Positions 3,107 to 29,972 of a DNA stretch of 64,000 nucleotides are shown piece by piece. Position numbers and translations under genes: made by a program. The notes under the pieces were generated by a model. That model made no database searches. It saw only the letters and a list, made by a program, of their open reading frames with translations, and was not told the origin of the DNA. The stretch covers positions 94,717-158,716 of IMG/VR virus record IMGVR_UViG_3300027779_000011. One strand, given 5' to 3'. This DNA comes from a virus. The first letter of the stretch is position 1; the number at the start of each line of letters is the position of its first letter.

Positions 3107-3112
3107 TATAAT
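3107..3112 (+). promoter_or_regulatory. Candidate -10 element TATAAT
   Basis: A perfect TATAAT inside GTATAATTG lies in the 40-base gap after the fibre gene and directly before the next reading frame. No convincing -35 is seen at 16-18 bases. The first usable start codons (TTG 3112, GTG 3118) overlap or nearly touch it, so any transcript would have almost no leader. A similar GTATAATT context is found at 20021, 26218 and 31193. Confidence 0.35.
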
Positions 3113-3462
3113 TGTGGGTGGCTACTTTGGATGCATACTTGATACTCGGATGTAATGGAAATATTGACCCCGATGGGTTTTTATATTGTTCGGAAACATG
3201 CAACATTGTTATAGACCTGGCGGAGCCAGTATTCATTGGAGATGACAATCTTTTGGATTTTTTAGATGAAACGTGCAGGCTATTTGACAATCCAGAGTAT
3301 AATTATAACGCTTGTATAAATATGATAACGATGCTATATCGAGACTACGAGTGTTTCGATGAGGATTTCTTGCACAAGCTTCAGTTTTATTTCAGAAACC
3401 ATCGAAGTTGCGGTGTATATATAATGTTAATGACAAAGGAGGATTTTGATAATGTCAGATAA
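3112..3462 (+). CDS. Small acidic protein of unknown function
   Basis: About 116 aa, acidic and cysteine-containing, with no recognised family. There is no ATG start: the frame opens at TTG 3112, with GTG 3118 and TTG 3127 as alternatives. No Shine-Dalgarno sequence is visible and TATAAT overlaps the start, so the true start is uncertain. The 3' end overlaps the next gene (ATG 3452) by 11 bases, which suggests translational coupling. It is the first gene of the cluster that leads into FtsK, primase and SbcCD, so a DNA-metabolism or early role is possible but not shown. Confidence 0.5.
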   Translation: MWVATLDAYLILGCNGNIDPDGFLYCSETCNIVIDLAEPVFIGDDNLLDFLDETCRLFDNPEYNYNACINMITMLYRDYECFDEDFLHKLQFYFRNHRSCGVYIMLMTKEDFDNVR

Positions 3463-3802
3463 AGTTTCACTTCCGGGGGGATCTAAGTACTTGGATTCGA
3501 AGAAAAGAACGGCTAAGGATAAGATAACTGACGCGTTTGATGGCTTTAAGTCTTTGCTTTCGGATAAGACTCATCCGGATAACCAGACTACTGCTTATCA
3601 TAATAATGTCGTATCTATCCTAAACCGCCTCCTTGTATCTGCAGATGAGTTGGATGACTCAAACCCAGGCGAGGGTATCTTTGGGCTAATAATTTTAAGC
3701 CTAAGGTCCTCTCTGAAGTTAAAAGATGAAATCATAAAGGTAGAGGTCGAAAATAGGGAGCTCAGGATTGAGATAGAAAAGCTTAAAAAAAGAAATAGTT
3801 AA
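3452..3802 (+). CDS. Unknown 116-aa protein with C-terminal coiled coil
   Basis: The ATG at 3452 is chosen because AAAGGAGG (3435-3442) sits nine bases upstream; an in-frame TTG at 3446 would lie too close to it. The last ~30 residues (KLKDEIIKVEVENRELRIEIEKLKKRNS region) form a leucine-heptad coiled coil, which points to a dimer. The N-terminal half is charged and lacks recognised motifs. The stop overlaps the next start (TAATG), as is common in this cluster. Confidence 0.7.
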   Translation: MSDKVSLPGGSKYLDSKKRTAKDKITDAFDGFKSLLSDKTHPDNQTTAYHNNVVSILNRLLVSADELDDSNPGEGIFGLIILSLRSSLKLKDEIIKVEVENRELRIEIEKLKKRNS

Positions 3803-3981
3803 TGCAGGATAATATAAAAAATAAACTCATAAGGAAGATTTCCGAAATGTCTAAAAAGATTAGGGGCGTTGAGGATTTTTCTAAAAAAGTTGGAGTTAGC
3901 ACAGATAGTGATGTCTACTATGCTTCTTTGAGGTCATATAAGGCAGCCCTTGAGGACATATTGCACAGTATAAAGGAGTAA
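3802..3981 (+). CDS. Small 59-aa protein of unknown function
   Basis: A 59-codon ORF fills the gap exactly between its two neighbours. Its ATG overlaps the previous TAA (TAATG) and its TAA ends one base before the FtsK ATG. Its own 3' end (AAAGGAG) supplies the Shine-Dalgarno for FtsK. The product is basic at the N-terminus and helical (MQDNIKNKLIRKISEMSKKI...), with AT-rich codon use like its neighbours. No family is recognised. It is probably real because of the junctions and fit. Confidence 0.55.
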   Translation: MQDNIKNKLIRKISEMSKKIRGVEDFSKKVGVSTDSDVYYASLRSYKAALEDILHSIKE

Positions 3982-3982
3982 A

Positions 3983-5074
3983 ATGCTTGTTGAAAAAGTA
4001 GTTGATATATTTGAAACTAGAAAAGAAGAAAGGATGTTTCATGTTCTGAGGTCCTTTGGAGTGGCATGTGATGCCATTTCTTTAAACGAAAAGGAATATT
4101 TTGATATTTATGACATAAGGTTGTCCAGGGGTGTGAAACATTCTAAACTAGAAAAGCTATTGGTTGATATCGGACTCTCTATATCCGCCCACTGCACACC
4201 AAAGGGCTCTGCTGTTATGAGGGACGGCATATACAGAATAGAGGTACAGACCAAGGAGATTGACAGCCCTACGTTTTCAGATATATACAGTAGAATGAAT
4301 CGTAATTTGTATATGCCGATTAGTCTTGGTACTACAATTTCTGGTGATTATCTGGTTAAAGATTTAAATAGCCTTCCGAATCTTTTAATCGCGGGGATTC
4401 CAGGCTCTGGAAAGAGTATGATGCTACACTCAATAATATTGAGTTTAATGTCAAAAAATTGTGACATACATCTGGCTGATCCCAAGATGGTTGAATTTGG
4501 AATGTATGAAAGAATGAGTTCCGTATCCTCTGTGGAAAACTCAGTAGAAGACATATCAGAGAGGATCGAGGCTATAAGGCAAGAGATGGATGCGAGGTTT
4601 ATATTATTGAAAAAATATGGATGCAGAAACGTTCATGAGTTTAATGATAGAGGTTCTAAAAAACATATGAAGCCTATTGTTTTGATTATCGATGAGTGGG
4701 CGGATATCTTCCTACAGGATAAAAAGATAGAAAAGCCTCTGTGTTTTATAGCACAAAAAGGTCGCGCTGCTGGTGTATCAATTGTGTTGGCAACACAGAG
4801 GCCATCCTCCAATGTGATATCTGGGCTGATAAAGGCAAACTTTTCTGGTAGGATAGCATTAAAGACCACTTCTGCGATAGACAGCAGGGTTATTTTAGAT
4901 AGAACTGGTGCGGAGAAAATTCTTGATATAGGAACTGGTATATATGTTGATCACACAACTCCATCGCCAGTTATGTTCAGGTCTCCATATATAGAGAGTA
5001 TTCCGCTAGAGATAGAGAGATGTGGGTATGATGACGGATGTAATAAACCATTTTGGAAAAAGTTCTGGACTTGA
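3983..5074 (+). CDS. FtsK/SpoIIIE-family DNA translocase ATPase
   Basis: A 363-aa motor-only FtsK/SpoIIIE homologue. Residues ~48-95 (SRGVKHSKLEKLLVDIGL...) match the FtsK alpha domain. The RecA-fold motor follows, with Walker A GIPGSGKS (138-145), the family-specific ADPKMVEF (165-172), Walker B VLIIDEWAD (233-241), and the signature QKGRAAGVSIVLATQRPSS (258-276) then SRVILD. FtsK pumps double-stranded DNA using ATP. The N-terminal membrane domain and the C-terminal gamma (sequence-reading) domain of cellular FtsK are absent, so this is a soluble, probably hexameric pump. It lies directly upstream of the primase zinc domain and SbcCD. Plausible roles are moving DNA during recombination or replication-fork processing. 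Family membership is firm; the role is inferred. Confidence 0.93.
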   Translation: MLVEKVVDIFETRKEERMFHVLRSFGVACDAISLNEKEYFDIYDIRLSRGVKHSKLEKLLVDIGLSISAHCTPKGSAVMRDGIYRIEVQTKEIDSPTFSDIYSRMNRNLYMPISLGTTISGDYLVKDLNSLPNLLIAGIPGSGKSMMLHSIILSLMSKNCDIHLADPKMVEFGMYERMSSVSSVENSVEDISERIEAIRQEMDARFILLKKYGCRNVHEFNDRGSKKHMKPIVLIIDEWADIFLQDKKIEKPLCFIAQKGRAAGVSIVLATQRPSSNVISGLIKANFSGRIALKTTSAIDSRVILDRTGAEKILDIGTGIYVDHTTPSPVMFRSPYIESIPLEIERCGYDDGCNKPFWKKFWT

Positions 5075-5076
5075 TT

Positions 5077-5616
5077 ATGAAAAGAGCTTCGAAGCAAGAC
5101 ATTTTAGATAACATAAGTATAAAAGACATAGCCCGTGAGAACTCCATTGGTCTTGAGTCTATTCTTAGTGGGAACTTTACGCACCGATGCCGGTGCCCGT
5201 CAAAGGATCATAAGCATGGTCTTGAGAGAACAAGCTCACTATACATTGATTCTGTTAATAATAATTTTTACTGCTTTGGCTGCACTTCATCATCAAACGT
5301 AATAGACTTTCATATGCTATGTAAGGATGTTACTTTTTCGGACGCAATCTTGGAACTTGGGAAAAGGATCGATGTAGAGTTAATAAAGCCAAGAAAGTTT
5401 CACATAGTAAAAAATAACTTTTCTATATTTGTTGAAATTTCAAAAGCAATAAGGGGTTATATAATGTCCAATAAGAAAGACATGCTGTGGGTAGACAAGC
5501 TATGCGAGAGGGTTGATCTGTACTATGAAAAAATTGGCTACGAGGACATACTCTCCGCTAGAAAAATACTATCGAATGTTAAAGATGCAATATCAAAAAG
5601 GGAGGGTCTAAGATGA
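5077..5616 (+). CDS. Primase zinc-binding (CHC2) domain protein; N-terminal part of a split DnaG
   Basis: 179 aa from ATG 5077, three bases after the FtsK stop; an upstream in-frame TTG (5053) lies inside FtsK and is less likely. Residues ~37-75 form the DnaG-type CHC2 zinc ribbon. C38/C40 and H45 in RCRCPSKDH and C66/C69 in YCFGCTSSSNVIDF match the Cys-His...Cys-Cys layout and the YCFGC hallmark. In DnaG this module recognises the template start site. No Toprim domain follows; the catalytic half is encoded separately at 29965-30714. The C-terminal ~100 residues are helical and unrecognised, and may dock to the helicase or the catalytic subunit. The 3' end overlaps sbcD by four bases (ATGA). 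Confidence 0.88.
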   Translation: MKRASKQDILDNISIKDIARENSIGLESILSGNFTHRCRCPSKDHKHGLERTSSLYIDSVNNNFYCFGCTSSSNVIDFHMLCKDVTFSDAILELGKRIDVELIKPRKFHIVKNNFSIFVEISKAIRGYIMSNKKDMLWVDKLCERVDLYYEKIGYEDILSARKILSNVKDAISKREGLR

Positions 5617-6788
5617 GGGTCGTTATTTGCGGAGACAGTCATATAGGCGCAACGTTTGGGCTGGGCAAATCCAATGGGTCTGGTGGAAATACAAGGGTTG
5701 ATGATTATGAAAAAAGTCTTAATTATATTGTAGATTACTGTATATCAGAAGGTGTTGACGCATTTGTTCAAACCGGAGACATGTTCGAGTCAAGGTCACC
5801 CTCTCCAGAGCATATGGATATTGTTGATAGCGCTCTTAAGAAGTTGTCTGATGCAAATATAACAAGCGTAGTTATAATGGGTAATCACGATTATAGAAGG
5901 TCTGGAGATTCGTTCACTAGCGCAATATCTTCATTGCCGGCAAAAAACTATCCAAACGTTAGGCTAGTTCTTGAGCCTCAAAACATTCTAATATCAAATG
6001 ACTTAGGAGAGGGCGTGAATGTAGTTCTTATTCCATATAGGGATAGAAGGATGTATGATGGTGAAAACATAAGAGAGCAGTCTCAAAATTATAATATTCA
6101 CATTAAGTCAATTATTGATTCGATATCGAATAAGCATCCAATAATGTCGGTCGGCCACAATTTCTTTTACGAGGGAAGCTATAACGACTATGGCGGAACT
6201 GAGATATTAGCGGGGGTAAATGTTTTTTCAGACTGCAATCTTGCTGTCATGGGCCACCTGCATACTTTTAGAGAGCTTTCGTGTAAAAGCACAAAGGCTA
6301 TATATATTGGCTCCATGGAGAAGGTCAACTTTGGTGATGAGAATATAGATAAGTTTTTCATAGACTACTGCTCTAAGGGGGATATCGCTAGATATAAAAA
6401 GGTACCAGCACGAGAGCTGCTGTCTATTGACATAGACTTGCGTGACTGTGATGTATCAAATATAAATACCTCTATCGAAGAAAGGCTGAAGTCTTTAAAT
6501 GTGGATAATAAGATAGTAAAAATAAAAACAACAATAAGTGAGCAATTACTGTCATCTATAAACAAAAATTCTATAGAGAAGATGGCGTATTCCTTTGGGG
6601 CGTTTGTAGTATCAAGAGTTGCGATAGAGACCATAGCCTCTAGGATTGTTAGAGATACTTCGATACTTTCCAAAAATGATGATTTTTCAATGTTCAAAGC
6701 CTTTGTTGAGGCTCAGAGTTTAGGTAAAAGGACAAAAGAAAGTATTTTGTCCGAGGCTAAAATAATTATGAATGATAAGGATGGTTAA
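5613..6788 (+). CDS. sbcD: SbcD/Mre11-type exonuclease subunit
   Basis: A 391-aa calcineurin-like phosphoesterase of the SbcD/Mre11/T4 gp47 family. The metal ligands are in order: GDSHIG (D8, H10), QTGDMFE (D56), MGNHDYR (N91, H92), VGHNFF (~residue 177) and MGHLHTF (~212-216), followed by the YIGSMEKVNFGDE capping motif. With SbcC it forms an ATP-dependent nuclease that trims DNA ends and cuts hairpins; in T4 the homologue makes the 3' tails used for recombination-dependent replication. It overlaps the primase zinc-domain gene (ATGA) and sbcC (TAATG), so the subunits are translationally coupled. The length is typical of SbcD. Confidence 0.95.
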   Translation: MRVVICGDSHIGATFGLGKSNGSGGNTRVDDYEKSLNYIVDYCISEGVDAFVQTGDMFESRSPSPEHMDIVDSALKKLSDANITSVVIMGNHDYRRSGDSFTSAISSLPAKNYPNVRLVLEPQNILISNDLGEGVNVVLIPYRDRRMYDGENIREQSQNYNIHIKSIIDSISNKHPIMSVGHNFFYEGSYNDYGGTEILAGVNVFSDCNLAVMGHLHTFRELSCKSTKAIYIGSMEKVNFGDENIDKFFIDYCSKGDIARYKKVPARELLSIDIDLRDCDVSNINTSIEERLKSLNVDNKIVKIKTTISEQLLSSINKNSIEKMAYSFGAFVVSRVAIETIASRIVRDTSILSKNDDFSMFKAFVEAQSLGKRTKESILSEAKIIMNDKDG

Positions 6789-8893
6789 TGCTTCCAATAA
6801 AACTAAAACTAGAAAACTTTTTTTCACATAGAAATTGCTCTGTTGATTTTTCAAAATTCGAATCAGCATTATTATTAGGCAACACTGAAGGTGACTATAC
6901 CAAATCTAATGGATCTGGTAAAAGTGCGGTGTTCGAAGGAATATTGTGGTGTCTGTTTAACAAGTCTAGAGCATCGATGATGGATGATATAGTCCTATGG
7001 GGAGAAACTCACTGTTCTGCTACATTTGATTTTTCAAAGTCTGGGTACTCATACAGGGTAAAGAGATCTAGGAATAAAATAAACTCGACATCTTTGGTTG
7101 AGTTTTATAAATTAAATGAAAAAGATGAATGGCAGAATATATCTGGCTCGACCTCTGGAGATACTTCTAAGAAAATTCAAGATACTATAAAGCTTGATTC
7201 TAAGACTTTTACAAATTCAATATACTTTAGGCAAAACGATATATCTGAATTTGCAGAGTCTGAGCCGTCAAAGCGAAAAGAAATTTTGAAGTCGATAATA
7301 GATATATCCAAATGGGATGAGTATGAAAAAAGCGCTAAAAAAGAAATAAGGAGTATAAGTAGTGAGTGTAAGATTCTGGAGGCAAAGTCAGAGGGCCTTG
7401 CTGAAGATGAAGAGGCCTTATCCTGTCTTGGCGAAGACCTCTTACTCATATCTATGTCTCTGGATGAAAAAAGCAGCAAAGCAGATCAGCTTAGAGAGAC
7501 TATAGAGAATAATAATGTGGAATACTTAGCCATGAAAAAAACTCTAGATACTGATTCTTACGATTCTATAGTCGACAATATTGAAAAGCTGAAGAGCAAT
7601 GGAAGGAATGGCAGTGAAAAGTTATCTCTAGCCTTAGATCAGATATCCAAAATAGAGTTAGACTTAGTGGGTGCGAAAAAAACACTTAACAGGAAGAGCA
7701 ATGAGATTATATCTATAGTTATTTCTGATAAAAATCAAAATTATCTTGATGATATTAATAAAGATATTTTGAAATGCAAAACAGATATATCTTTATCAAA
7801 AGAGATGATTAACAAAATAAACTTAAACGATCTAAATAATGATAATTGTGATTTCTGTGGTCAGGATATATCGAGAGGCCTCCACGATAAAATTTTGCAC
7901 GATAATAGTGTTAAAATAAACAAATATAATGATGCCATAGAGATATCAGAGGGAGAGCTTGTATTGCTAGAATCTGATAAAAAAGACTGTAAAGAGAATA
8001 TATTAAAAATACGAAGACTGGGACAGTTGAATAGTGAATTATCTCCAGCAAAAAAAGAAGTAGAGATATTGAGATCTAGAAAAAATACTCTTGATAATGA
8101 CAAGGAATCTTTAGGACTAGTTTTGAGCAATACGAGAGCGGAACTAAGTGTGCTAAAAGATTCCTTGAATATGCTGAAGGATGATAATTTTAAAGCCCTA
8201 AGGGAAAGGTCGGCTTCGATGAAGCAGCGGTATTCTGATTTGCGTAATATTATAAATCAAGAGCATCAAGAGGTTGGTGCGCTTAAGCAAAAGATATCTA
8301 TAACACAGGATATTTTGGAGCAGAAAAGAAAAAGTAGGGAAGACTTGCTTGAGAGAAAGAAACGAATACAGCTATTTGAAAGACTGTCAAAGTTTTTTGG
8401 AAAAAATGGAATACAGACTATTCTTTTAGACGCAGTAATAGAAGATCTGGAAAAGAGTGCTAATAATATTTTATCATCAATCTGCAATGAGCCCTCGGCT
8501 ATAATGTTAGATACACAAAGAGTCGGATCAGACGGAATATCAATAATAGAAACTTTAGATCTGAGGGTCAGGCGGGATAGCGTTATACAAAATTTTAAGT
8601 CACTCAGCGGAGGTGAGCAGTTTAGGATATCTCTCGCACTAAGAATAGCGCTAAGTGAGATGTCAAGCCTTCATGGTGGCTCAAGCCTCGAAATGTTGCT
8701 TCTTGATGAGATAAACTCCCCATTGGACAAGCATGGAACAGAGACATTATTTTTGAGCGTAATAAAGTCTTTAGAAAAGAAATATAAGATTTTAATAATA
8801 ACTCATGATGACTCTCTAAAAGAAAAGTTTGATAACATATTAAATGTTACAAAAGTTAACGGAGAGAGTATTGTTGAGTTCACAACAAGGTAA
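6788..8893 (+). CDS. sbcC: SbcC/Rad50-type ATPase subunit
   Basis: A 701-aa SMC-like ATPase, the partner of the adjacent SbcD. The N-terminal half-motor has LKLENFFSH and a Walker A ending SNGSGKS (~residues 40-46), with a Q-loop in YFRQNDISEF. Long coiled coils flank the zinc hook at C354-D-F-C357 (CDFCGQ). The C-terminal motor has the ABC signature SLSGGEQ (605-611), Walker B EMLLLDE (D640, E641) and ILIITHDD. At 701 aa the arms are shorter than in bacterial SbcC (~1050 aa) but longer than in T4 gp46 (~560 aa). The known role is gating the nuclease for DNA-end resection. The start ATG overlaps the sbcD stop. Confidence 0.95.
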   Translation: MLPIKLKLENFFSHRNCSVDFSKFESALLLGNTEGDYTKSNGSGKSAVFEGILWCLFNKSRASMMDDIVLWGETHCSATFDFSKSGYSYRVKRSRNKINSTSLVEFYKLNEKDEWQNISGSTSGDTSKKIQDTIKLDSKTFTNSIYFRQNDISEFAESEPSKRKEILKSIIDISKWDEYEKSAKKEIRSISSECKILEAKSEGLAEDEEALSCLGEDLLLISMSLDEKSSKADQLRETIENNNVEYLAMKKTLDTDSYDSIVDNIEKLKSNGRNGSEKLSLALDQISKIELDLVGAKKTLNRKSNEIISIVISDKNQNYLDDINKDILKCKTDISLSKEMINKINLNDLNNDNCDFCGQDISRGLHDKILHDNSVKINKYNDAIEISEGELVLLESDKKDCKENILKIRRLGQLNSELSPAKKEVEILRSRKNTLDNDKESLGLVLSNTRAELSVLKDSLNMLKDDNFKALRERSASMKQRYSDLRNIINQEHQEVGALKQKISITQDILEQKRKSREDLLERKKRIQLFERLSKFFGKNGIQTILLDAVIEDLEKSANNILSSICNEPSAIMLDTQRVGSDGISIIETLDLRVRRDSVIQNFKSLSGGEQFRISLALRIALSEMSSLHGGSSLEMLLLDEINSPLDKHGTETLFLSVIKSLEKKYKILIITHDDSLKEKFDNILNVTKVNGESIVEFTTR

Positions 8894-8935: not shown

Positions 8936-9850
8936 ATGAGTACATTAGCAATTACATTGATCGAAAGCCCTACGGATCTTGTGTCTGGAATCCCAGAGTA
9001 TATAGCATTTAGCACAAGTTCTCCGGCAACTGTTTTTTACACGGTTGATGGCACTGTGCCTACAAGTGGCTCGTTTATGGCGGCAGGAAACATTTACCTA
9101 TCATCACACTGGTCAGAACAGTGGGTTTTAAAAAAGAACGACACTATTACGATTAAGGCTTATGCCGTTTCTGGAGATATGGAGTCTTCGGTTTTAACAC
9201 AAAAATACAATACTGGGCAGCTGGACTTGGACAGAGTCAGGCTATTTAGCGAGGAGGGGATAAGGGTTCTTCCTCACGGTGGAGACGTTGTAGACAACTT
9301 ATCATACACATCATCCGGTGATAACGCACAGGAGACTGCTATACCGTTTAACGATCTAGATATAAAGGCATCTACAACTGATCATAGGGGGATCGCCATA
9401 TCTGGAACTACTGTTGGTTTCATTAACAAGGTTGGTGGAAAGGCTTCGCCAGATTATAATGATATTTCTCATGTAAACAATAATTACAACTTTGATCCAA
9501 AGGCGAAGGTTATCGTTATAGACGGAACCACACAGGCAAAAACTGACGAACAAGTAGTTAGAATTATAAATAGGCCTTACAATACAATGCATCCCTTGGA
9601 TAAGGATAAGGATGATTGGTACAACGACCACTTGAAGCAAAATCCAACCATATCTGGAAATCTAGTTAGGCAGGTTTATGACAAGTCCACTGGATATGTG
9701 ACGTTTTATTATTACGAAAGCAGAGATTCTAGGTGGATTATCTCAAAACAAAAAGTGGATGGAGATAACTTCTCCATACAGACCCCATCCGTTCAGACTC
9801 CATTTGTTTTTAAATGGATAAACGATAGATCAATGACAAAAATATACTGA
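8936..9850 (+). CDS. Structural-type protein with chitobiase C-terminal-like domain
   Basis: 304 aa, preceded by TTTGGAGTG about seven bases before the ATG. Residues ~28-75 (ATVFYTVDGTVPTSG ... IKAYAV) match the chitobiase/beta-hexosaminidase C-terminal fold (YTxDGxxPT followed by a strand ending in the IKA motif). This beta-sandwich is often attached to extracellular or virion proteins. The rest is beta-rich and rich in Asn, Asp and Tyr, and no catalytic motif was noticed. It stands alone between sbcC and the nuclease gene. A virion decoration, baseplate or fibre-associated role is likely but inferred. Confidence 0.6.
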   Translation: MSTLAITLIESPTDLVSGIPEYIAFSTSSPATVFYTVDGTVPTSGSFMAAGNIYLSSHWSEQWVLKKNDTITIKAYAVSGDMESSVLTQKYNTGQLDLDRVRLFSEEGIRVLPHGGDVVDNLSYTSSGDNAQETAIPFNDLDIKASTTDHRGIAISGTTVGFINKVGGKASPDYNDISHVNNNYNFDPKAKVIVIDGTTQAKTDEQVVRIINRPYNTMHPLDKDKDDWYNDHLKQNPTISGNLVRQVYDKSTGYVTFYYYESRDSRWIISKQKVDGDNFSIQTPSVQTPFVFKWINDRSMTKIY

Positions 9851-10629: not shown

Positions 10630-11421
10630 ATGGATAAAGAATTCGCAGGGAGCGTGGACGTGTATGATGAGAACTTTTATGTTGATACAAGGACCGGAGA
10701 GGGCCTGGATTTGGTTCTTGATAAGATAGATCCGCTATTATGCAAGATGGCCTCTAGGACATATATTCCTGGATATTTTTTCGATGATATAAAGCAAGAG
10801 CTTGTCGAAATTGCAATAAATGGCATAAGATCATACAATCCTGATAAAAAGGTGAAGCTTAGTACTTTTTTGCACATTCATCTTAGGAACAAGATTATAT
10901 CAAAGATTAGATCAAAGAATAAAATGTCAAAGGATGCGTTTGGCCTGGGTGATTTAAGTGCGTACACGTGTAAATGCGGAACTAGCGAAACGCCCATCGA
11001 AGATTCTGTTCTGACAGAAAGTGGCTCATATGAGGTTAAGGTTTCATGCGCCAGTTGCGGGTCTACTTTGTCTAAGAAGACGAGGAGGATAAGGGAGGAA
11101 ATTCTCTTTACTCAGATCAGAACGAATAACTCTGAAAAAAATGATGCAATAAACTTTGAAGATATGATTTCAGATGATGACGCTATGTATAACTCCGGAG
11201 CCTCTCTTTATAGGCATGTTGACTTCATAGACTCCCTTGACAAGTTGTCAGAATCTATAGATGAGAAAACGGCAAAGATAGTTAGATTAATATGCCTTGA
11301 AGATTATTCAATAAAGGATGCTGCTAGCGAAGTTGGTTTATCTGGATGGGCAGCAAGCATGAGGTTAAAAAACTTATCAAAAAACAAAGTAATAAAGGAC
11401 ATGTTCGATAAGAAAGAATAA
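10630..11421 (+). CDS. Phage sigma factor with inserted zinc ribbon
   Basis: 263 aa from ATG 10630, which has a strong AGGAGGT at 10618-10624; the frame stays open upstream to 10594 inside the nuclease gene. Residues ~45-95 (FDDIKQELVEIAING ... YNPDKKVKLSTFLHIHLRN) match sigma-70 region 2, the -10 recognition and core-binding segment. Residues ~205-255 (KTAKIVRLICLEDYSIKDAASEVGLS) are a region-4-like helix-turn-helix. Between them are C114-x-C116 and C140-x-x-C143, a zinc-ribbon-like insert not usual in sigma factors. The likely job is redirecting host RNA polymerase to phage late promoters, as T4 gp55 does. Sigma identity is well supported; lateness is inferred. Confidence 0.82.
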   Translation: MDKEFAGSVDVYDENFYVDTRTGEGLDLVLDKIDPLLCKMASRTYIPGYFFDDIKQELVEIAINGIRSYNPDKKVKLSTFLHIHLRNKIISKIRSKNKMSKDAFGLGDLSAYTCKCGTSETPIEDSVLTESGSYEVKVSCASCGSTLSKKTRRIREEILFTQIRTNNSEKNDAINFEDMISDDDAMYNSGASLYRHVDFIDSLDKLSESIDEKTAKIVRLICLEDYSIKDAASEVGLSGWAASMRLKNLSKNKVIKDMFDKKE

Positions 11422-11428
11422 TAATAAT

Positions 11429-12865
11429 ATGATATCAAAATCTATTGAAAAATATATAGACGAAGAAATAGAGATATCAAGATATAAAATATCTTCTCTA
11501 AGCAGGGTTTCGAACCTAAAGCCATCTCAAAAAAGAATTTTAGAAATAGAGGAAGAGCTTTGTTCGACACCGTTTAAGAGTCTCGGCTTTTCATCTACAT
11601 CGGAAGCCGCAACTGCATTTAGAATTTTCAGAGAGTCTAGAGCGATGTTCTATGATATGTATCTTAATGAGAGTCGGGGCCCCACTCTTTCTGTGGGTAG
11701 TGCGAAAGAGCTTTGTCAATGTATAGATAGGAAGCTTCATTTTTTAAACTCAAAGGCAAAAGAGCTCTCCTCTTTTAGGCCTCAAGAGGTCAACCTAGTA
11801 CAAGATAAAGATAGCAGGGATCTGTTTTTTAGGCATCTGGCAGATAAAAACAGCTCTCCCATTGGGTTGGAGGTTGACAAGTTTCGTAATAAGAAAGTAA
11901 AAGATTATGAAGCATATGAGCCATCTGTTATTTCTAAGTTTAGAGCAAGAAAGCAGGCGTGCATAATGTCTGCAGGAAGACATATGCACGACGAGTGCCA
12001 AAGATTATCTAGTGAATACAGGCATGAGCTGTTGTCAAAAAATATCTCTAAAGAGAGGCTGACCACAATAGAGGGCTCTATTGATAGTGTATTTTTTAAT
12101 TTAAATGATAATATTTATAAAAATTATAATTACGCTATAGACAGCATGCATGGATTGATTGAAAAAACAATGGGTTCTAACAAGAGTTTCCGCAAAATTA
12201 GAAGATTGAAAAACTGCTTAGAGAGCAGTGATGGTATTCCAAATACGATAAACTCTTCAAATGGTAAAACCTCATTTAGGATAGAAAATATTTTTTGTGG
12301 AAGTAAAGAGCCAATAAAGCATTCTTTCTTAAAAGATAAAAATAAAAATATATCAACAAAGGCTTATGGCATTCTGTTTCCAATAAAAAGAATTGGTAAT
12401 GAGAAAATGACTCCATTGTATATAGATATTTGGACAGATTCTGATGTGTGCATGAATAATATAATTTGTAATAAATTATCAAATGTGAAAGCAACAGACC
12501 CCGTGTCCAGTGATGATATTTATTATAAGTGTATTTTTCTACTACCTATGTGGAAAGTTTTAGAAGCTTCTTTCCTGGATGATGGCATAAAGATGTTTTT
12601 ATCTAAAATTTATAATTTAGATATTGAAAAATTTAATGATATAGACTTTAATGATAAAAAAAATATATCGAAAGAATTATCATTCTCTGAAGGTTTTGCG
12701 AATATAAACGATAGCAAGAGCTCTATATTAGTTCCGAGCACGAGATCTGAGGAATTCTTTTTTTCCACAAATCGTGAAAAGATACAAAACCACATAATTA
12801 ATGTGTCTGGGTATAATGAATATGTTGAAAATTATACTATTAATAATCGCGCAGTTAATGTATAA
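11429..12865 (+). CDS. Unknown 478-aa protein
   Basis: Follows the sigma factor by seven bases. The product is basic, rich in Lys, Ser, Asn and Ile, and largely helical in the first half (SISKYIDEEIEISRYKISSL and similar). It has no clear enzymatic motif, signal peptide or membrane segment. Scattered cysteines (KELCQCID, ENIFCGS, NNIICNK) do not form an obvious zinc site. The codon use is very AT-rich toward the 3' end. It precedes the giant gene, so it could be a virion or DNA-binding protein, but no function can be assigned. Confidence 0.65.
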   Translation: MISKSIEKYIDEEIEISRYKISSLSRVSNLKPSQKRILEIEEELCSTPFKSLGFSSTSEAATAFRIFRESRAMFYDMYLNESRGPTLSVGSAKELCQCIDRKLHFLNSKAKELSSFRPQEVNLVQDKDSRDLFFRHLADKNSSPIGLEVDKFRNKKVKDYEAYEPSVISKFRARKQACIMSAGRHMHDECQRLSSEYRHELLSKNISKERLTTIEGSIDSVFFNLNDNIYKNYNYAIDSMHGLIEKTMGSNKSFRKIRRLKNCLESSDGIPNTINSSNGKTSFRIENIFCGSKEPIKHSFLKDKNKNISTKAYGILFPIKRIGNEKMTPLYIDIWTDSDVCMNNIICNKLSNVKATDPVSSDDIYYKCIFLLPMWKVLEASFLDDGIKMFLSKIYNLDIEKFNDIDFNDKKNISKELSFSEGFANINDSKSSILVPSTRSEEFFFSTNREKIQNHIINVSGYNEYVENYTINNRAVNV

Positions 12866-12909: not shown

Positions 12910-15900
12910 ATGAAAAAAGAAAAAAGATTAACTTTATTAAGAAAGTATTTTAAAAAGTCTGCAACGGATAAGTCATCTGATGAGCCTAGGGTTTCCCCTG
13001 TTATAGTCAGGCTAATTACAGATCTGCTAGAGCTTCATGAAGAGGGCGCTCTTTCGGAGATTAGCGATGAGGTCTCAGGGTCAGTTATTGAAAACCTATT
13101 GGGGGCATACGAAAGGCTTAGCGCCGGAAGAGATGATTCTGAGGGGTTGCTTGTAGAAGATTACGACGTGCTTGATACAAGTGGAGACCGGATTAGTGAC
13201 GACAGGTATGTGCCGGAAGATGAAGATGACTGGCTTGCGGAGGAGCATGAGCCTGGGGCTACGGTACAGACTACCATGCAGGAGGACTATGAAAACGTTC
13301 TGTCGGACTATGATGAAGTCATCTATACGATAATAGAACAATCATTTGGCGAGGGAGATATAGAGACTGGCATTGAAAATATGATATCAGAGGATAAAGA
13401 CTTTGTCTCATCCTATGTATCAAGTGCTTTCTCAACCCTAAGCAGGGCTCTCGATAGTCTGGATAAACATTTTCCAACGGATTCGTTTTCAGGTAGCAGT
13501 GATAAGGAGCTGGCCAGCAGAATAAAGTACATAGAAACGTACAGGGAAGAGGTAAGGGGTATGTACAAAAACCTTAGTGGCCTTTCCGGACTTGGCAAAA
13601 CCATAGAGAATGCGAATGACGCTATATCAATCCTGAGAGGCTATAGAGAGGGCCGAAGCGGTGGGACAGTTGAGGAGCCCGCTGGTGATCCTGGTGGCGA
13701 AACAATGATATTTGGACCAGACCGGCAGCCGGGGAAGCCCGGTCGGAGAAAGATTCGCCCCCTCGACGACCCTGCGGGGAAGGCCTCCAGGCGTAATAAG
13801 AAGTATTTGTTAACAGAGGAAGTTGCGCCATCCCGTGTTATGAATGATCATTCTAATATCGATCAAGAAGACTTAACGACTGATTGGTCAGTTGTTTCCA
13901 GCCAGCTATCTTCATTTTCTGAAGGATTTTTTACAGATGTTGATTCCGATATTTTAAATGGCGTAGAAGATAGGATGACCATAGAGCAGAAAGAGCTGCT
14001 TATTAGAGATAATTTTGAAAAGTTTGCTACAAATCTTTCTAGTGAGATAACTTTAATAAGGAATAGGCTGATAGATACTTCAATTGGGTTTGGTGGACGC
14101 ATATCTAATGAGGCTAACATCAGCAAGGCAATATCTAGCTTGAATAACCTATATGCATCCTTATGGGTTTGGGATCAGATAAATAAGATAAGAATAAAGA
14201 GTATGGACATAGGGTATGTAAATACGATCAAGATATCTGGAACATACAGTATCATCAGGCACCTTAAGTCTGTCGGAAGATCCACGCTAAGGAATTTCGT
14301 GGAGAGCGCAATTATATGCTCAAGAACAAAGCTTATGTTTAGGAAGGTTAGGAATGACGAGGGAGCTTATGACGAAGACTTAACCGCTAGGTTTATGCAA
14401 GAGGTTGTAAATCAAATTATAAATAAGATGTCTGCCGCCATTAAAGATGGGAGTAATAAAGAAAATATAATTAAGTATATAGGTACGATTCCGATAAACC
14501 AAACCTTGTTGCGAATAAATGCCAAAAATATTATAGATGTAGAATCCGGGGTTGTCGCATCAAAGACTGTTGTTAATAACAAGTATACAAAGTGCCCTGT
14601 GTGTAGCAAACAAATACTTTGGGGATTAAATGGTGGTGGTTCAGATAAGGAGAAAATCGATAGGTTTAAGGAAAAAAATCTTGGTAATTTTAAGTATGTT
14701 CAATATTCCTTTTATAGGGCCGATGGATCTCTAATAGATATAAATGACTTAATCGAACCTTCAAGCACCTTAATTAGTGACGCCGATGCAGACGCCGATG
14801 CCGATCACGGATGGAAGTCTAAGGAGTATTCCGGAACAAAAACGTGGATAGAGATAAGCAATATGATCTACTCTGGAGACAAGAGTGACCACGCAGAGGG
14901 CCTGAGAAGAAGGTCCGAAGTGCTTGCTTACTTTGGCGGAGAGCCGCTGAATAATGGAGAGGAGGTAAGAATAAGGGACTCTAGGTTTGGCTGCCCATAT
15001 GATTCTGAGAATGACCACTGTGGACTTGCGGTTTCTGAAGACGGAGATGAGTTTATGTTCGGATGGAATGGATCCGGCAGGACAGTTATTTCTGGTGATA
15101 AAAGCAAAGGGCCTACTAGACTTGATTTTTATGGCAAGAGAGATGGAGATAATTATTATACAAACTCAATAACCGAAGGCAATGAGCAGAACGCGAACCA
15201 TATGGCTAAAAAATATGGAAATGGTGGATATAAGTTTTCAAAGCATTGCTTCTCATGCCCATGCAGAATTACTCAAGACGTTGCAAAAGATGATGGCAAA
15301 TTTTTATATAAATATAATTATATGGCGATACCGTACTTTGGAGTGCACTCTGCAGATAATATATCTAATTATGAATTATGGAAAGAGAAGTCTCCAATAG
15401 GGCTTCCGACAGCCCCCGATGGTAGTGTTGATGATACAATTGGTGATAATACGGTTGGGTATGTTATTTGCGGTGCATCAACATCTCTGTCATCTTTCTC
15501 CAGAAGTGGACAGCTCTCTATCAGCTCTCTTTTTCAGTCGATATATGAAGCAGAGGGGTCTGGAGACAAACCAAGGGGAACTGCGAAGAGGCTTTCTGAA
15601 TGGCTAATATCAAATGGCGTTGACCCATTTGATATATATGAGTTTGTACATACTGGAAAATACCACTCTGTGGATTTAGAGATTCCTCCAGGGGAAGGGG
15701 AGGCATCGGACCCGATTCCTGCCGCATCTTTGCCAGAGGGTTTTTTCTCATCACCGGCTGACCGAGGATATACAGATCTTTATATGAGTGAGCAAGACCC
15801 TAAGCCGCCCGCCTTGGATGAGAAGGGAACTGTGGTACGAAGAAGGGGCGGTGTCGACAACAAGGAAAGTGCGCTTATACGCAGAAGTAGGAGAAGAAAA

Positions 15901-18900
15901 AACAATCTTAAAATTATAAACATTACATCTTCTTTGGATATAAATAAGTCAAAGAGGTTGCACAAAATATCGGAGCTTTTGTCTACAGCTATGGCCAAGT
16001 CGATTGACTCTGATATATATGACATCATCGGAGGCTTATCCCTATCATGTCCTAATGGACATAAGTTTTCCATATCTCAGAGTATTAACTTTGCGAATAA
16101 TAATATGGCAAGAAAGATAAGGGGGATGACGAGGATAGGTGAATATAGTTCTGAACATAATGCTCTAATGGCAAATGGATCATTTGAAAATTATAAAAAA
16201 TTAGGAATTATAAAGGAGGTTTCTGATTTCGATAACCATCAGCAATATGATAAATGGACGGTATCATCATCGTCAAAAAGAGACCCGTCAAGGCTATCGT
16301 TCCTTGGGCCGGATGGTAGGTATTATAAAATAAGTGAAGTGTGGAACCCTGGAAAGGGTGGCTTTTTGGCTACAGCCTGGAACACTAGATCTACCGCAAG
16401 GGCTCCTTACTCATTTACTGATCCGATAGTTGAATTTAGAATGAACTATGAGCTATCAGACAAAGAGTATGTTAAATCAAAGTCAACCACAAAGGGAGAG
16501 GATGATTCTGGAGAGTCCTCGGCTTTAGAAGGGGAGATGGTAAGATCAGTTGAGGAATCTGTTGGTGGAGAGGAAACAAACGTCACCGATGATGCAAGGA
16601 CAATAGACGAGCAACTTTCAGAGGGCTATCATCTGGTTCAGCCAATACCTCATCCAAGCAGGCTTTCTGCGAACGCAGATACCGTTAGGATCCAGGTAAA
16701 GCAGCTCTCTATATCTGTTGAGTCTATTTTAAATGTAATAGCCCAATGGAGGGATAACGCAGTCGACTCTTCGTTTAACATGGCTTTTGCATATCCAGAA
16801 AACATTTGTTGCACTGAGGATGACTACCGGACTATAAAGACGAGCATTCCGGAGATAATAGACATTGCTGTTGGGCCAGAAGACCTGGAGAAAACCTCCC
16901 TACAGGTATTTGAAGATCTGAAATCAAACTTGTTTGATTCATATCTAGATGGTGTTGATTTGAACAGAATTCATTTAATGATTCCAAATTATACATATGA
17001 GTATGTATCAAATATGATATATGAAAATATATCGAGTTCGTTAAAATCTGTAATTGGGTTAGAATATAATGATGAAATCAGACTAGATACAAAGTCCGAA
17101 GCCTTTTCTGACATAGTCAACATACTCTTTCCGTTAAAAAGATTTAGCCCGGTGTCTCAAAAGGCAAGTTACGGCAAGGAGTTAGTGAGGAAGGAGTTTA
17201 TAGGGAAGTTATACATGGTTGCTTCTGCAATATATTTATCCAGAGCTATGGAGAAATACGCAAATAATTACCATAATCCGGCGTCATCAAATTATGTTGG
17301 ATATAGATTGCCATTAGACTTAGACGCAAACTCTGCTTTTAATGTGTCAAAAGAGCAGATATCTGGATTTCCGTCAGAAGTCATAAGGGATCTGGAACGC
17401 GGAACAGATCAGCTCCTAGACGCAAATGGAGGCATTGTCGGGGAAATACAATATGATGTGGATGAGTCTGGGGCTATTTTGAATGAGGATGAAATATTAA
17501 GAAAGATTAAATCTGCATATCACTTCTCAATAAAAGAAGATTTGGAAAATATAGATAGCATAGTCTTCTCCAGGGATGTTTTAGACGCCGCTAGGGAGTA
17601 TATATCAAACATGGCGATCGACAAGATCATAGAACCCATATCTAATACGGACAGTGTTTTGCAATATATGGATGAAAACGGCTATGTTAAAATAGATGAT
17701 GGAAGTTATTCATATGAAGACAGGATTAGGGCAATATCAGGCATACTAGATCAGGCTAGGGCGATTGAGGATAAGGGGGTTAGGTCTCATAAAGCGGGAG
17801 CTAAGAACAAACAGCTTATGTCATTTTTGACAGAACATGGTATAGACCCGGTTTTCTATAGGAATAAAACAATCTTTGATGCAATGACCTCTTCCTCTCA
17901 GGTTGCAACAGTAAGCTTTAGGCCATACATGGATGAGTGGGAGGGACCTAGCGGTCAGGATTATGTTCAGCCATATAAGCCTCAAATTCCATCTTCTTTA
18001 AAAATTATGTTTGCGTACCCAACAAAAGAAACTGTTGCCGCCCAGAAGGACTTTTTTAACAAAGATACGATGACTATTAGGGCCTTCATGAGATATCCGA
18101 TAATATCTCTGCCATCACACAACAGTGGGTTTTTAGTATCGCAGAAACGAGGAACTGAGGTTGGCCATTTTGTTGTGTCAAGGCTAAGGCCGCTGGGCTC
18201 TAGGACGGCAAAGATAGAGGGCCAAGAGCTTCAGGATTTTATATCTTCAAAAAGGTTGTACGAAGTTGATGCATATACAGAAATGCTGGATAATATGGGC
18301 TTTAATATATGGTTTGTCTCTCAACTAGAATACCCCGCGAAAGGGGTTTCTTCCAAAACATATTCACCATTATTTGGGCATCTTGATAGCGAGGGGAGCC
18401 CCAAAAAAGATCTCAAGGCAAACATTTCAAGCATCTTGGATCATCCAGCAACAGAGGCTGGGGTGGATGAAAATGGAAATGATTTTTACATAAATTCATT
18501 ATTCAATTATGATAGCAGGTTGTGGCAAATTGGAAGGGTTGGGAAATCTAGTGCCACTGGCGCTGTATTTTCGTATCCAATATCTGAAGAAAATCTTATG
18601 AGGTATGATAGTCCAATCGGAGTGATCCTTCCTTTTGATCTATCACCATCGTCATCAAACATGGGTACGAACCAGGAAAGGAATCTGGCCAAAGTGTTTA
18701 GGAATGCGCTTCCTATAGCAGATATAAACTTTATTGTCGAGATTGACAATATGCCAATAGATATAGGGTTTCTTGTCCAAAAAACGAAGGGGGCGTTTCT
18801 GAAAGGCCTTTCTGATATAGATAAAAGTTATAATTCATATAGGGCAGGGGTCAATAAAATAAAGTCTAATAGCTCTACTAGTGCGGAAGAAAAGTCTCAA

Positions 18901-20067
18901 TTGGAAATGGACGAAGCGATGAAGTTAAATGATAGAGCCGCTGGAACTGTAAATTCAATATCTAGGCTTAATTATTCAGTAAGAACATCTGAGTCTGCAT
19001 CCAAAAAGCGTTCGGCGCCAGCAATTCCCGGCAGCGATCCTTACGTGTCTGCTATTTCAAAGCTGGATACTCCAATTTGGAGATCGTCAATTAGGCCGTC
19101 AATACCCCTCGTGGATCCTCAGACTGCGTACAGGTTGGTAAGCGGAGAACAATACAGTATTTCTGGACTAGTGCCAGAGCTAACGTCCGAAGAAAAGAAC
19201 GCCCTTTATAAGTTTATTGTTGATGTATATGGATTAAACGTAATTGGAAAAGTATTTTCGCCGCTAATGGAGCGAGGTGTTGGCTCGACGTTATCACCAG
19301 AAGAGACGCTGGACTTAGAAAATGTTGTGAAGGATTATGCCGAAAATAAACTTGGATTCGAGCTTACCGATGATGAGTATATGGGTCGCAAAAAAGTAAA
19401 GGGCGCCAGGGATAAGGGAACTCCGGCAGAAAGGGTACAGCTTATTTTAGACAAGCTCAATGCGCTAAGGCCGAATGTGGTCGGCATTGGGAAAAAGACA
19501 AGCCTTACAGTTAAGAACAACAACCACCTTGCAAACGTTATGGGAATCGATCCTGGAATGTATTACAACCTATCCCAAGAGTCGGCCATATCTTACGTGC
19601 CTGTTTCTGTTCCGGTTGAGTTATTTGGACAAGAGTGGAAGAAGGGCTGGACCCCTATAGATACGAAGACTGTCTTGCAAACTAGAGATGTGCAAAGAGG
19701 TTATAGGGTAGACGAAGACGGTAGAAAAATTCCAGTCAGGGATTCGCTTCTTGCCGGAAGAATTAGCGCCGCAACATTAGATTATTTCCGTGGAACACAG
19801 ACGGGGGATGTTGCGAGCATAGATCAACATGGCGCAGAGATGTCAAAAGTTGTTCCTGGCACAGCATCCGGTGTAGAGGGCATTGTCGGATTGGCGACGA
19901 AGATGAAGAGGAACTTATTATTACACATGGAAAGAAGACTCAAGGGTTTGAGCATAGAAAAATTAAGTGAAAAAAATGATTTATTAAATAAAATTTCTTA
20001 CAGGCGGAGGAGACTCTTTAGTATAATTAAGACCAATGGGCATGGTGCCGATTACAAACTTAAATAA
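12910..20067 (+). CDS. Giant 2385-aa protein with several cysteine clusters, unknown function
   Basis: The longest gene in the window. The N-terminal ~320 residues are acidic and low in complexity (PEDEDDWLAEEHEPGA). Zinc-type cysteine clusters follow: KCPVC (C562, C565), FGCPYD...DHCGL (C695 and ~703), KHCFSCPC (C780, C783, C785) and LSCPNGH (C1047). A DADADADADH run lies near residue 627. The rest mixes helical and Tyr/Ser-rich segments, with a Lys/Arg-rich tail. No polymerase, protease or lysin motif was recognised. Its size and position suggest a virion-associated or ejected protein, but a nucleic-acid enzyme with zinc domains is equally possible. The start is ATG 12910, preceded by only a weak CCTGGG; a 44-base gap before it may hold a promoter. 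Confidence 0.8.
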   Translation: MKKEKRLTLLRKYFKKSATDKSSDEPRVSPVIVRLITDLLELHEEGALSEISDEVSGSVIENLLGAYERLSAGRDDSEGLLVEDYDVLDTSGDRISDDRYVPEDEDDWLAEEHEPGATVQTTMQEDYENVLSDYDEVIYTIIEQSFGEGDIETGIENMISEDKDFVSSYVSSAFSTLSRALDSLDKHFPTDSFSGSSDKELASRIKYIETYREEVRGMYKNLSGLSGLGKTIENANDAISILRGYREGRSGGTVEEPAGDPGGETMIFGPDRQPGKPGRRKIRPLDDPAGKASRRNKKYLLTEEVAPSRVMNDHSNIDQEDLTTDWSVVSSQLSSFSEGFFTDVDSDILNGVEDRMTIEQKELLIRDNFEKFATNLSSEITLIRNRLIDTSIGFGGRISNEANISKAISSLNNLYASLWVWDQINKIRIKSMDIGYVNTIKISGTYSIIRHLKSVGRSTLRNFVESAIICSRTKLMFRKVRNDEGAYDEDLTARFMQEVVNQIINKMSAAIKDGSNKENIIKYIGTIPINQTLLRINAKNIIDVESGVVASKTVVNNKYTKCPVCSKQILWGLNGGGSDKEKIDRFKEKNLGNFKYVQYSFYRADGSLIDINDLIEPSSTLISDADADADADHGWKSKEYSGTKTWIEISNMIYSGDKSDHAEGLRRRSEVLAYFGGEPLNNGEEVRIRDSRFGCPYDSENDHCGLAVSEDGDEFMFGWNGSGRTVISGDKSKGPTRLDFYGKRDGDNYYTNSITEGNEQNANHMAKKYGNGGYKFSKHCFSCPCRITQDVAKDDGKFLYKYNYMAIPYFGVHSADNISNYELWKEKSPIGLPTAPDGSVDDTIGDNTVGYVICGASTSLSSFSRSGQLSISSLFQSIYEAEGSGDKPRGTAKRLSEWLISNGVDPFDIYEFVHTGKYHSVDLEIPPGEGEASDPIPAASLPEGFFSSPADRGYTDLYMSEQDPKPPALDEKGTVVRRRGGVDNKESALIRRSRRRKNNLKIINITSSLDINKSKRLHKISELLSTAMAKSIDSDIYDIIGGLSLSCPNGHKFSISQSINFANNNMARKIRGMTRIGEYSSEHNALMANGSFENYKKLGIIKEVSDFDNHQQYDKWTVSSSSKRDPSRLSFLGPDGRYYKISEVWNPGKGGFLATAWNTRSTARAPYSFTDPIVEFRMNYELSDKEYVKSKSTTKGEDDSGESSALEGEMVRSVEESVGGEETNVTDDARTIDEQLSEGYHLVQPIPHPSRLSANADTVRIQVKQLSISVESILNVIAQWRDNAVDSSFNMAFAYPENICCTEDDYRTIKTSIPEIIDIAVGPEDLEKTSLQVFEDLKSNLFDSYLDGVDLNRIHLMIPNYTYEYVSNMIYENISSSLKSVIGLEYNDEIRLDTKSEAFSDIVNILFPLKRFSPVSQKASYGKELVRKEFIGKLYMVASAIYLSRAMEKYANNYHNPASSNYVGYRLPLDLDANSAFNVSKEQISGFPSEVIRDLERGTDQLLDANGGIVGEIQYDVDESGAILNEDEILRKIKSAYHFSIKEDLENIDSIVFSRDVLDAAREYISNMAIDKIIEPISNTDSVLQYMDENGYVKIDDGSYSYEDRIRAISGILDQARAIEDKGVRSHKAGAKNKQLMSFLTEHGIDPVFYRNKTIFDAMTSSSQVATVSFRPYMDEWEGPSGQDYVQPYKPQIPSSLKIMFAYPTKETVAAQKDFFNKDTMTIRAFMRYPIISLPSHNSGFLVSQKRGTEVGHFVVSRLRPLGSRTAKIEGQELQDFISSKRLYEVDAYTEMLDNMGFNIWFVSQLEYPAKGVSSKTYSPLFGHLDSEGSPKKDLKANISSILDHPATEAGVDENGNDFYINSLFNYDSRLWQIGRVGKSSATGAVFSYPISEENLMRYDSPIGVILPFDLSPSSSNMGTNQERNLAKVFRNALPIADINFIVEIDNMPIDIGFLVQKTKGAFLKGLSDIDKSYNSYRAGVNKIKSNSSTSAEEKSQLEMDEAMKLNDRAAGTVNSISRLNYSVRTSESASKKRSAPAIPGSDPYVSAISKLDTPIWRSSIRPSIPLVDPQTAYRLVSGEQYSISGLVPELTSEEKNALYKFIVDVYGLNVIGKVFSPLMERGVGSTLSPEETLDLENVVKDYAENKLGFELTDDEYMGRKKVKGARDKGTPAERVQLILDKLNALRPNVVGIGKKTSLTVKNNNHLANVMGIDPGMYYNLSQESAISYVPVSVPVELFGQEWKKGWTPIDTKTVLQTRDVQRGYRVDEDGRKIPVRDSLLAGRISAATLDYFRGTQTGDVASIDQHGAEMSKVVPGTASGVEGIVGLATKMKRNLLLHMERRLKGLSIEKLSEKNDLLNKISYRRRRLFSIIKTNGHGADYKLK
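20021..20032 (+). promoter_or_regulatory. Candidate promoter GTATAATTAAGA (copy 1)
   Basis: This 12-mer, containing TATAAT, lies inside the last 50 bases of the giant gene. A TTACAG about 18 bases upstream is a possible weak -35. An identical 12-mer lies just before ruvC (26218). Both sit immediately upstream of a gene start, which suggests a phage promoter class. It would serve the gene at 20084 and the downstream membrane protein and polymerase genes. Confidence 0.4.
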
Positions 20068-23800: not shown

Positions 23801-24107
23801 GACTCCATTAAAAAATATTTCACTTACCAATACTGGTGATAAAATAAAAATCGAAGTAATAGTTAATTCAAAAATAAAAGAATTTAAAATAAAGAATGGG
23901 AAGAATATAGGTAGGAAGTTTGCAAAGTATCTGGTGGAGGACGTTGATGGAGAAACTTGCGATTTGACATTGTGGGCAGATCAATACGATAGACTTAGAG
24001 CGCGGCTTGTAGACGGTATACCAATAAAGGCAATTTGTAGAATAAATGAGTATATGGGGCAGAAAAGCCTCAGCCTTGTTGAAATAGAAAGGATATATGG
24101 AGGATGA
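20859..24107 (+). CDS. dnaE: DNA polymerase III alpha subunit (DnaE type), replicative polymerase
   Basis: 1082 aa, with AGGAG just before the ATG. The N-terminal PHP domain has LHNHTE (H10, H12) and TDHGT (D44, H45). The C-family polymerase core has GPGRGSAGGSLVSF, FPDIDTDF (D429, D431) and KMDILGLKTL (D581), matching the DnaE catalytic aspartates. WSVHAAGIVIS is the conserved palm/thumb motif. A helix-hairpin-helix (SAIKGLGGAAIKEMI) precedes a C-terminal OB fold (~residues 975-1075). It synthesises phage DNA. It is slightly shorter than bacterial DnaE (~1160 aa) and lacks an obvious clamp-binding tail. No clamp, clamp loader or helicase is in this window. Its end overlaps the Shine-Dalgarno of the next gene. 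Confidence 0.96.
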   Translation: MEKSPFVSLHNHTEQGSPLDGMNNIDELFNQAKSLGHKAIAITDHGTLTAHYDAWKASKNTGVKLIPGMEAYFAPSLEDRKSYHLVLIPKNHNGYKNILRLNYESYKNQVSGYMGKKTPRITWEHLEEFNEDVICLTACSNGPIAKALIADEEENEAISRLIRLKSIFADRLYLELQPHSLKTDDGKVDQVRLNNALIKYAKIHNVKYVVTSDAHYLDANHAKYHDMMLAIKDKKAVDDPDRFRYGVQDMYLKNHDEITEFFGEEIATEAMRNSSDIADMCDEPEYLEPKGPRLPRFPIESESDYGEFKKWTGSGKDDVDEDKAFLRFRCMKSFKDKFSELNISDKTKYWSRVKYELSILEARSFSSYMLIVSDYINWAKQNNIPVGPGRGSAGGSLVSFLIGITSVNPMEFGLLFERFHNKEKESFPDIDTDFADPSKVKEYLKGKYGEDRVASISNWSTLSPKVIIKDVARSLRLGGDKSTAFKIANHITSIMPDARSIEDAMEVSKEFKSYMLRYPKLYDYASKLQGLTRNWSVHAAGIVISDEPLYNFVPLRIDESGHLVTQWEKTRCEENGLIKMDILGLKTLTVIDNVFKNIKNTKDIEISIEDIPIDDKETYEMISSGNNAGIFQLEASLSPLCQKIKPVNVRMISDINAMGRPSCSAQDRKNYIQRRFGIEDVSYRHSTLEKALGGTYGVSLYEEGMMAIAKDCAGWDLNQADALRKITKQKGKDPGLVLRTEASFLKDCMSKTGMSYEQAKDIWDNEIIPFGLYGFNKSHSILYSHISVYTAWLKRHYPTEFMCALLNSEDPNSDKAQEYINECGSMSISILAPDINHSDGNYSIKSGSEIVTGLSAIKGLGGAAIKEMIGNKPYDSFSEFLVKNSGRTVGKTAIQSLSKSGAFSTFGRTRMDIFENYQKYRTKLRSAVAKDKDIDDVVLPEYNEEWDRKKLLLFEKEVLGRTISGSLHEVFDGFFTKSYSVTPLKNISLTNTGDKIKIEVIVNSKIKEFKIKNGKNIGRKFAKYLVEDVDGETCDLTLWADQYDRLRARLVDGIPIKAICRINEYMGQKSLSLVEIERIYGG

Positions 24108-26774: not shown

Positions 26775-28424
<1,650 letters not shown>

Positions 28425-28445
28425 AAATAAAATTGGAGTTTATTG

Positions 28446-29612: not shown

Positions 29613-29972
29613 ATGCTTGTAAATTGTAATGTCGGATGTAAGCTTGGCATAACCACTACTATTGCAAAATTAGATATGGATACCAATCAGGCTATATGCA
29701 TGGAGTGTGGGTATGAGATTTTAAATATGTCTTACTTCTCCAAACAAAATATGAAAAATAGTGGAGACATTATAAGCAAAAGGAAAAATAGGGCTTTTTC
29801 TTTTCAGTGTATTACTTGTGAAACAATCGTCGAAACAATGTATTCAGATGATGGTATAATTGGGGTTGGATGTGATAACGGAGATTGTTCTTTTAAGATT
29901 CCATCGCCAATGATCGAAGCCTTAAAGCATAACAGAAACTATAAAGAAGAGGGCACCCAAGAGGATGAGTAA
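29613..29972 (+). CDS. Cysteine-rich zinc-binding protein of unknown function
   Basis: 119 aa with cysteine pairs CNVGC, CMECG, CITC and CDNGDC, suggesting two zinc ribbons. It lies between recA and the primase catalytic subunit and overlaps the latter by eight bases, so it is translationally coupled to it. A role as a primase or replication accessory zinc protein is plausible, but no family is recognised. Confidence 0.65.
   Translation: MLVNCNVGCKLGITTTIAKLDMDTNQAICMECGYEILNMSYFSKQNMKNSGDIISKRKNRAFSFQCITCETIVETMYSDDGIIGVGCDNGDCSFKIPSPMIEALKHNRNYKEEGTQEDE

Follow-up and report, generated by a model that had tools for sequence, protein, structure and literature searches.

The window, a stretch of 64,000 nucleotides, comprises bases 94,717-158,716 of the 158,716-base IMG/VR virus record IMGVR_UViG_3300027779_000011. 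It contains a run of genes for a DNA translocase, a primase zinc ribbon, and the two subunits of an Mre11/Rad50-type nuclease, followed downstream by genes for replication and recombination proteins. The genes that matter for the following analysis are:

3112-3462, + strand: conserved small protein, function unassigned (TTG start set mechanically; ortholog in almost all of 32 lineages; no family match)
3446-3802, + strand: conserved small protein, 118 aa, possible C-terminal coiled coil
3802-3981, + strand: 59-aa open reading frame after the small protein and before FtsK (tblastn found its ortholog in two relatives)
3983-5074, + strand: FtsK alpha-beta dsDNA translocase motor, 363 aa (Pfam FtsK_SpoIIIE 1.3e-28; PHROG FtsK-like 3e-67)
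5077-5616, + strand: stand-alone DnaG-type CHC2 zinc ribbon (Pfam 3.7e-11)
5613-6788, + strand: SbcD/Mre11 nuclease (PHROG SbcD-like 4e-30; PDB Mre11 2.9e-18)
6788-8893, + strand: SbcC/Rad50 ATPase, 701 aa, zinc hook C354-x-x-C357 (PHROG SbcC-like 4e-73; PDB Rad50 2e-24)
8936-9850, + strand: Ig-like (Fn3_assoc/CHB_HEX_C) protein (Pfam 3e-8; present wherever the contig reaches)
9860-10618, + strand: PD-(D/E)XK nuclease of the Cas4/RecB kind (Pfam PDDEXK_1 1.2e-30)
10630-11421, + strand: sigma-70-like factor, regions 2 and 4 with a zinc ribbon between
11429-12865, + strand: conserved protein of unassigned function (no Pfam or PHROG match)
20859-24107, + strand: DNA polymerase III alpha with PHP domain (Pfam 2.4e-74; PHP 1.5e-35)
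28443-29597, + strand: RecA-type recombinase (Pfam RecA 2.5e-53)
29965-30714, + strand: DnaG catalytic core (DNAG_N and TOPRIM) without zinc ribbon, adjoining RecA

The record is probably a fragment of a larger phage genome, because relatives reach 395 kb. In subgroup 3.2 of Iyer et al. (PMC7824862), the polymerase is likewise III alpha with a PHP domain. The source is a large uncultured phage, which probably belongs to a lineage of large PolIII-alpha-type phages. No close cultured relative was found, with no match at the DNA level and distant matches only at the protein level, and the host search, one scan of genome contigs, gave a single weak match that is probably unrelated. The text describing the Moraphage lineage does not mention FtsK, SbcC, or polymerase III (PMC12619734). 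Relatives were collected by scans with SbcC, FtsK, and SbcD queries, which resulted in 44 SbcD-bearing loci including the window, representing 32 lineages at 90% SbcD identity. All of the relatives' records are fragments, and "absent" below refers to a gene missing from its usual place and from the sequenced part of the record.

All four identities that a preliminary description had assigned to positions 3983-8893 (FtsK, zinc ribbon, SbcD, and SbcC) were borne out. The FtsK gene has a good ribosome-binding site (aaaggag), and its product is a member of the FtsK/SpoIIIE family with a RecA-like motor and intact Walker A and B motifs, matching FtsK in sequence over residues 16-225 and 229-335. 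In the lineage alignment, Walker A (G138, G141, G143, K144, S145), Walker B (D237, E238), and R273 were invariant in 27/27 sequences. The AlphaFold2 model (pLDDT 88.9) gave the FtsK motor as the best Foldseek match (TM 0.74-0.81), and this match covered the whole length, showing that an alpha domain lies ahead of the motor. Against known structures, the model matched FtsK with 1e-29 and HerA with 1e-9 to 1e-8 or weaker. As sequence and fold both favor FtsK, a HerA identity of the pump was ruled out. No membrane part was found in the window FtsK, and there was no match to the FtsK_gamma domain in 10 records, whereas the controls were positive in 8/14 cases. Xer-type tyrosine recombinases were likewise not found in 10 records, all fragments (controls 14/14), which leaves room for a host Xer. 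The previous view of a motor-only protein that is truly FtsK and not HerA (TM 0.80 versus about 0.45) therefore holds. The protein shares the alpha and beta domains, Walker A/B, the TQRPS motif, and its best fold match (TM about 0.8) with the alpha-beta part of E. coli and P. aeruginosa FtsK, but it differs from bacterial FtsK/SpoIIIE in being phage encoded, in its length of only 363 aa, and in having neither a membrane domain nor a gamma (KOPS/Xer) domain.

SbcD contains the phosphoesterase motif residues (D8/H10, D56, N91-H92-D93, H182, H215/H217), and all nine checked were invariant in 32/32 sequences. With SbcC, the checked residues of Walker A, Q loop, signature, Walker B, H loop, and the hook CxxC were invariant in 30/30 sequences, except for one gap at S46, in agreement with an SbcC/Rad50 ATPase. 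SbcCD is near-universal in jumbo phages and has been called a core recombination apparatus (PMC7824862). As with T4 gp46/gp47 and jumbo-phage SbcCD, the Rad50/Mre11 pair here belongs to the core genes for recombination, and a phage sigma factor is encoded close by, but identities are very low, and FtsK and the zinc ribbon are positioned directly upstream. Bacillus phage G was among the best cultured matches for the window SbcD (3e-18), but a search of the 27 kb around its SbcD for five further cluster proteins found none of them.

The zinc ribbon protein has DnaG-type Zn ligands (C40, H45, C66, C69) that were invariant in 31/31 sequences, and its model matches the primase zinc-binding domains 1d0q and 2au3. 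In the model, residues 115-178 form an additional three-helix bundle at the C-terminus, for which the structure search gave no clear structural relative. The zinc ribbon protein of the window has no TOPRIM domain and is thus not fused to the catalytic core as in DnaG; the two are encoded by separate genes about 25 kb apart. Each of 18 records had one zinc ribbon gene and 17 of them had the TOPRIM core, always as separate genes where both were present; in the records compared for distance, they were ~24-31 kb apart. The zinc ribbon and the downstream TOPRIM core are the two halves of a split primase, and we infer that the ribbon works in trans on the core. This layout is not new, since group 2 (T4-type) jumbo phages are known to have stand-alone zinc ribbons whose gene is separate from that of the DnaG TOPRIM core (PMC7824862), but here it occurs instead in phages with PolIII-alpha and PHP, and with the zinc ribbon fixed upstream of SbcD.

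Intein-like insertions were seen in two of these proteins. Three lineages have one in the SbcC Walker A motif, between GK and S (L008:4075-7602, L011:8447-11971, L010:8741-11968), and L010 has another in the primase zinc ribbon, at one of the zinc-binding cysteines (L010:4729-6405).

Among the neighboring genes, the 3446-3802 protein just upstream of FtsK was the slowest-changing of nine compared (mean distance 0.42). The Ig-like protein is probably a virion or surface part within the cluster; in one relative it is enlarged to 1345 aa (L068:13306-17343). In the PD-(D/E)XK nuclease, the cysteines C15, C237, C240, and C246 were invariant in 30/30 sequences, and this pattern makes it likely that the enzyme carries an Fe-S cluster. 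For the sigma factor, the start ATG 10630 behind AGGAGGT is more likely than TTG 10594. Further downstream, at 12910-20067, a 2385-aa protein without PHROG match is fast-evolving yet present in relatives. Between 2900 and 13000 of the window, terminator-like hairpins were in excess (11 versus a shuffle mean of 4.3). A promoter scan showed no excess over shuffles.

The preliminary description had also viewed the four genes as one overlapping and translationally coupled cluster. The overlaps of zinc ribbon and SbcD (4 nt, ATGA) and of SbcD and SbcC (1 nt) are real, but that of FtsK and the zinc ribbon needs the mechanically set start TTG 5053, and N-terminal conservation in the alignment favors ATG 5077, which results in a 2-nt gap. 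Coupling itself had been described as seen, but only overlap is visible, and overlap is ordinary here, because with mechanical starts, overlaps occur in 14 of the window's 51 neighboring + strand pairs, and 29 pairs are within -30 to +15 nt. We therefore dropped coupling as evidence for a joint function.

The suggested survey of relatives did recover a conserved FtsK-SbcCD adjacency. The order CHC2-SbcD-SbcC-Ig-PD-(D/E)XK-sigma was kept wherever the contig reached among the 32 lineages, FtsK was directly upstream of that run in 27/32, and FtsK, where present, was always in exactly that slot. However, the extent of the cluster had been set too narrowly, as the conserved run reaches from 3112 to at least 12865 and the collinear block to about 60.6 kb. 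In four divergent relatives, 137/137 steps were in unbroken order over up to 57 kb: 39/39 in G008, 42/42 in G014, whose block reaches window position 60.6 kb, 21/21 in G012, which was followed only to the primase core, and 35/35 in G001, which has no FtsK. The block takes in polymerase, chaperonin, RecA, primase core, terminase, and portal. Within 3112-60644, gene order was perfect at roughly 25-80% protein identity, which is unusual for mosaic phages. The FtsK-SbcCD adjacency is a by-product of this colinearity and is uninformative about a common machine, because any two neighbors in a collinear block look conserved.

The pump was not kept whenever Mre11/Rad50 was kept. FtsK was missing at its place with intact neighbors in five of the 32 lineages (L071, L079, L080, L081, and L083), and no FtsK was found elsewhere on their contigs, which are fragments of 48-178 kb. 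In FtsK-less loci, reading frames resembling the 59-aa frame at 3802-3981 were seen. On the SbcD tree, the presence or absence of FtsK needs three changes, two of which are forced by well-supported branches; FtsK has thus been lost at least twice, if it was ancestral, with SbcCD and the rest kept. Outside the lineage, no SbcC or SbcD match was detected up to 10 kb on each side of 16 FtsK loci with our profiles, which are lineage-specific and could miss diverged SbcCD. In named phages, FtsK is instead near ParM-like, peptidase, or RDF genes, and in phiAGATE about 48 kb separate FtsK from SbcC. We set aside "phage" FtsK matches in records from gut, wastewater, and Staphylococcus; their open frames measure 880-1282 aa, and the records are unverified and possibly bacterial DNA.

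The joint pumping and end-processing machine that had been proposed from the adjacency would consist of FtsK bound to SbcCD and pumping duplex ends in, as a phage counterpart of archaeal HerA-Mre11-Rad50. The archaeal precedent itself stands, as the HerA-Mre11-Rad50 interaction has been shown in Sulfolobus (PMC2288612), and both the slot conserved in most lineages and an FtsK-SbcD partial distance correlation of 0.43 are in line with such a machine. Distance correlations, which with 24 taxa are only suggestive, nevertheless speak against it: SbcD-SbcC, the known complex that served as yardstick, gave the highest value (0.91), whereas FtsK-SbcC reached only 0.62, with a partial correlation of -0.30. 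In the FtsK-less lineages, both SbcD and SbcC are intact, and SbcD showed no changes beyond control. Together with the colinearity, the losses, and the location of FtsK away from SbcCD in the other phages examined, this does not support the machine, which we consider unlikely.

FtsK distances tracked best with those of the zinc ribbon (0.80), PD-(D/E)XK (0.79), and SbcD (0.75), and its largest partial correlation was with PD-(D/E)XK (0.46; 0.26-0.53 in subsamples). In addition, seven PD-(D/E)XK columns that are conserved in the presence of FtsK were altered in most FtsK-less lineages, which was equalled in 0.3% of tree-aware controls. These data could point to the Fe-S PD-(D/E)XK nuclease as the partner of FtsK, in a HerA-NurA-like pair with a true FtsK motor in place of HerA. 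However, the nuclease is retained in every FtsK-less lineage, and L071, L079, and L080, which make up three of the five FtsK-less rows, form a single clade that holds most of the seven changes. The small protein at 3446-3802 gave a similar signal (1.7%), with six conserved columns altered in most FtsK-less lineages, and the tests covered eight proteins and few sequences. The co-variation is suggestive but confounded by clade, and we regard such a pair as very doubtful.

Like archaeal HerA-NurA-Mre11-Rad50, the phage locus combines Mre11 and Rad50 with an adjacent pump of the superfamily that HerA and FtsK share and with an additional nuclease, but the pump is FtsK and is dispensable, and the nuclease is PD-(D/E)XK and not NurA. 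It is unlikely that the soluble, gamma-less FtsK is an optional partner of Mre11-Rad50, of the Fe-S PD-(D/E)XK nuclease, or of both, in a counterpart of the archaeal system that arose independently.

FtsK could also merely sit in the block and act on host or phage chromosome segregation, be it in dimer resolution, in partition, or by poisoning host FtsK hexamers. Bastillevirinae phages have FtsK near a ParM-like partition gene, and PHROGs places such proteins under host takeover. Against Xer-type resolution, neither a gamma domain nor a tyrosine recombinase was found in the 10 records, and the intact ATPase residues speak against a dead poison, so that a role in segregation seems quite unlikely.

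We consider it moderately probable that the locus is a replication-recombination module whose core is made up of SbcCD, RecA, the split primase, the Fe-S nuclease, and sigma, and in which FtsK is an optional dsDNA translocase acting on the same DNA and not a fixed subunit. SbcD-SbcC, the counterpart of T4 gp47/gp46, would trim DNA ends, and RecA, encoded about 20 kb downstream, would take up the 3' tails produced. The stand-alone zinc ribbon would complete the split DnaG primase, whose catalytic core adjoins RecA, and the Fe-S PD-(D/E)XK nuclease and the sigma factor may round off the set; together, these genes would start recombination-dependent replication. FtsK, soluble, presumably hexameric, and without the KOPS-reading gamma domain, most likely travels along replicating or concatemeric phage DNA, where it could strip off proteins or move the duplex. 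It would then be an accessory in the same process and not an obligatory SbcCD subunit. Some functional tie of FtsK may exist, because its slot is fixed and its distances correlate with those of the zinc ribbon, PD-(D/E)XK, and SbcD.

More generally, adjacency that is conserved within a collinear core of tens of kilobases can mislead; here, gene loss and co-variation are informative, and the neighborhood is not. The lineage is useful for two questions, namely, the job of soluble FtsK motors in phages and the action of a primase with a separate zinc ribbon protein.

Two chaperonin (Cpn60/GroEL-type) genes are present in one phage record (window 26775-28424 and L005:14252-15877), and the window copy belongs to the collinear core. 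In addition, there are genes for DnaK, SAM synthetase, adenylosuccinate synthetase, IMP dehydrogenase, peptide deformylase, and an M16 peptidase.
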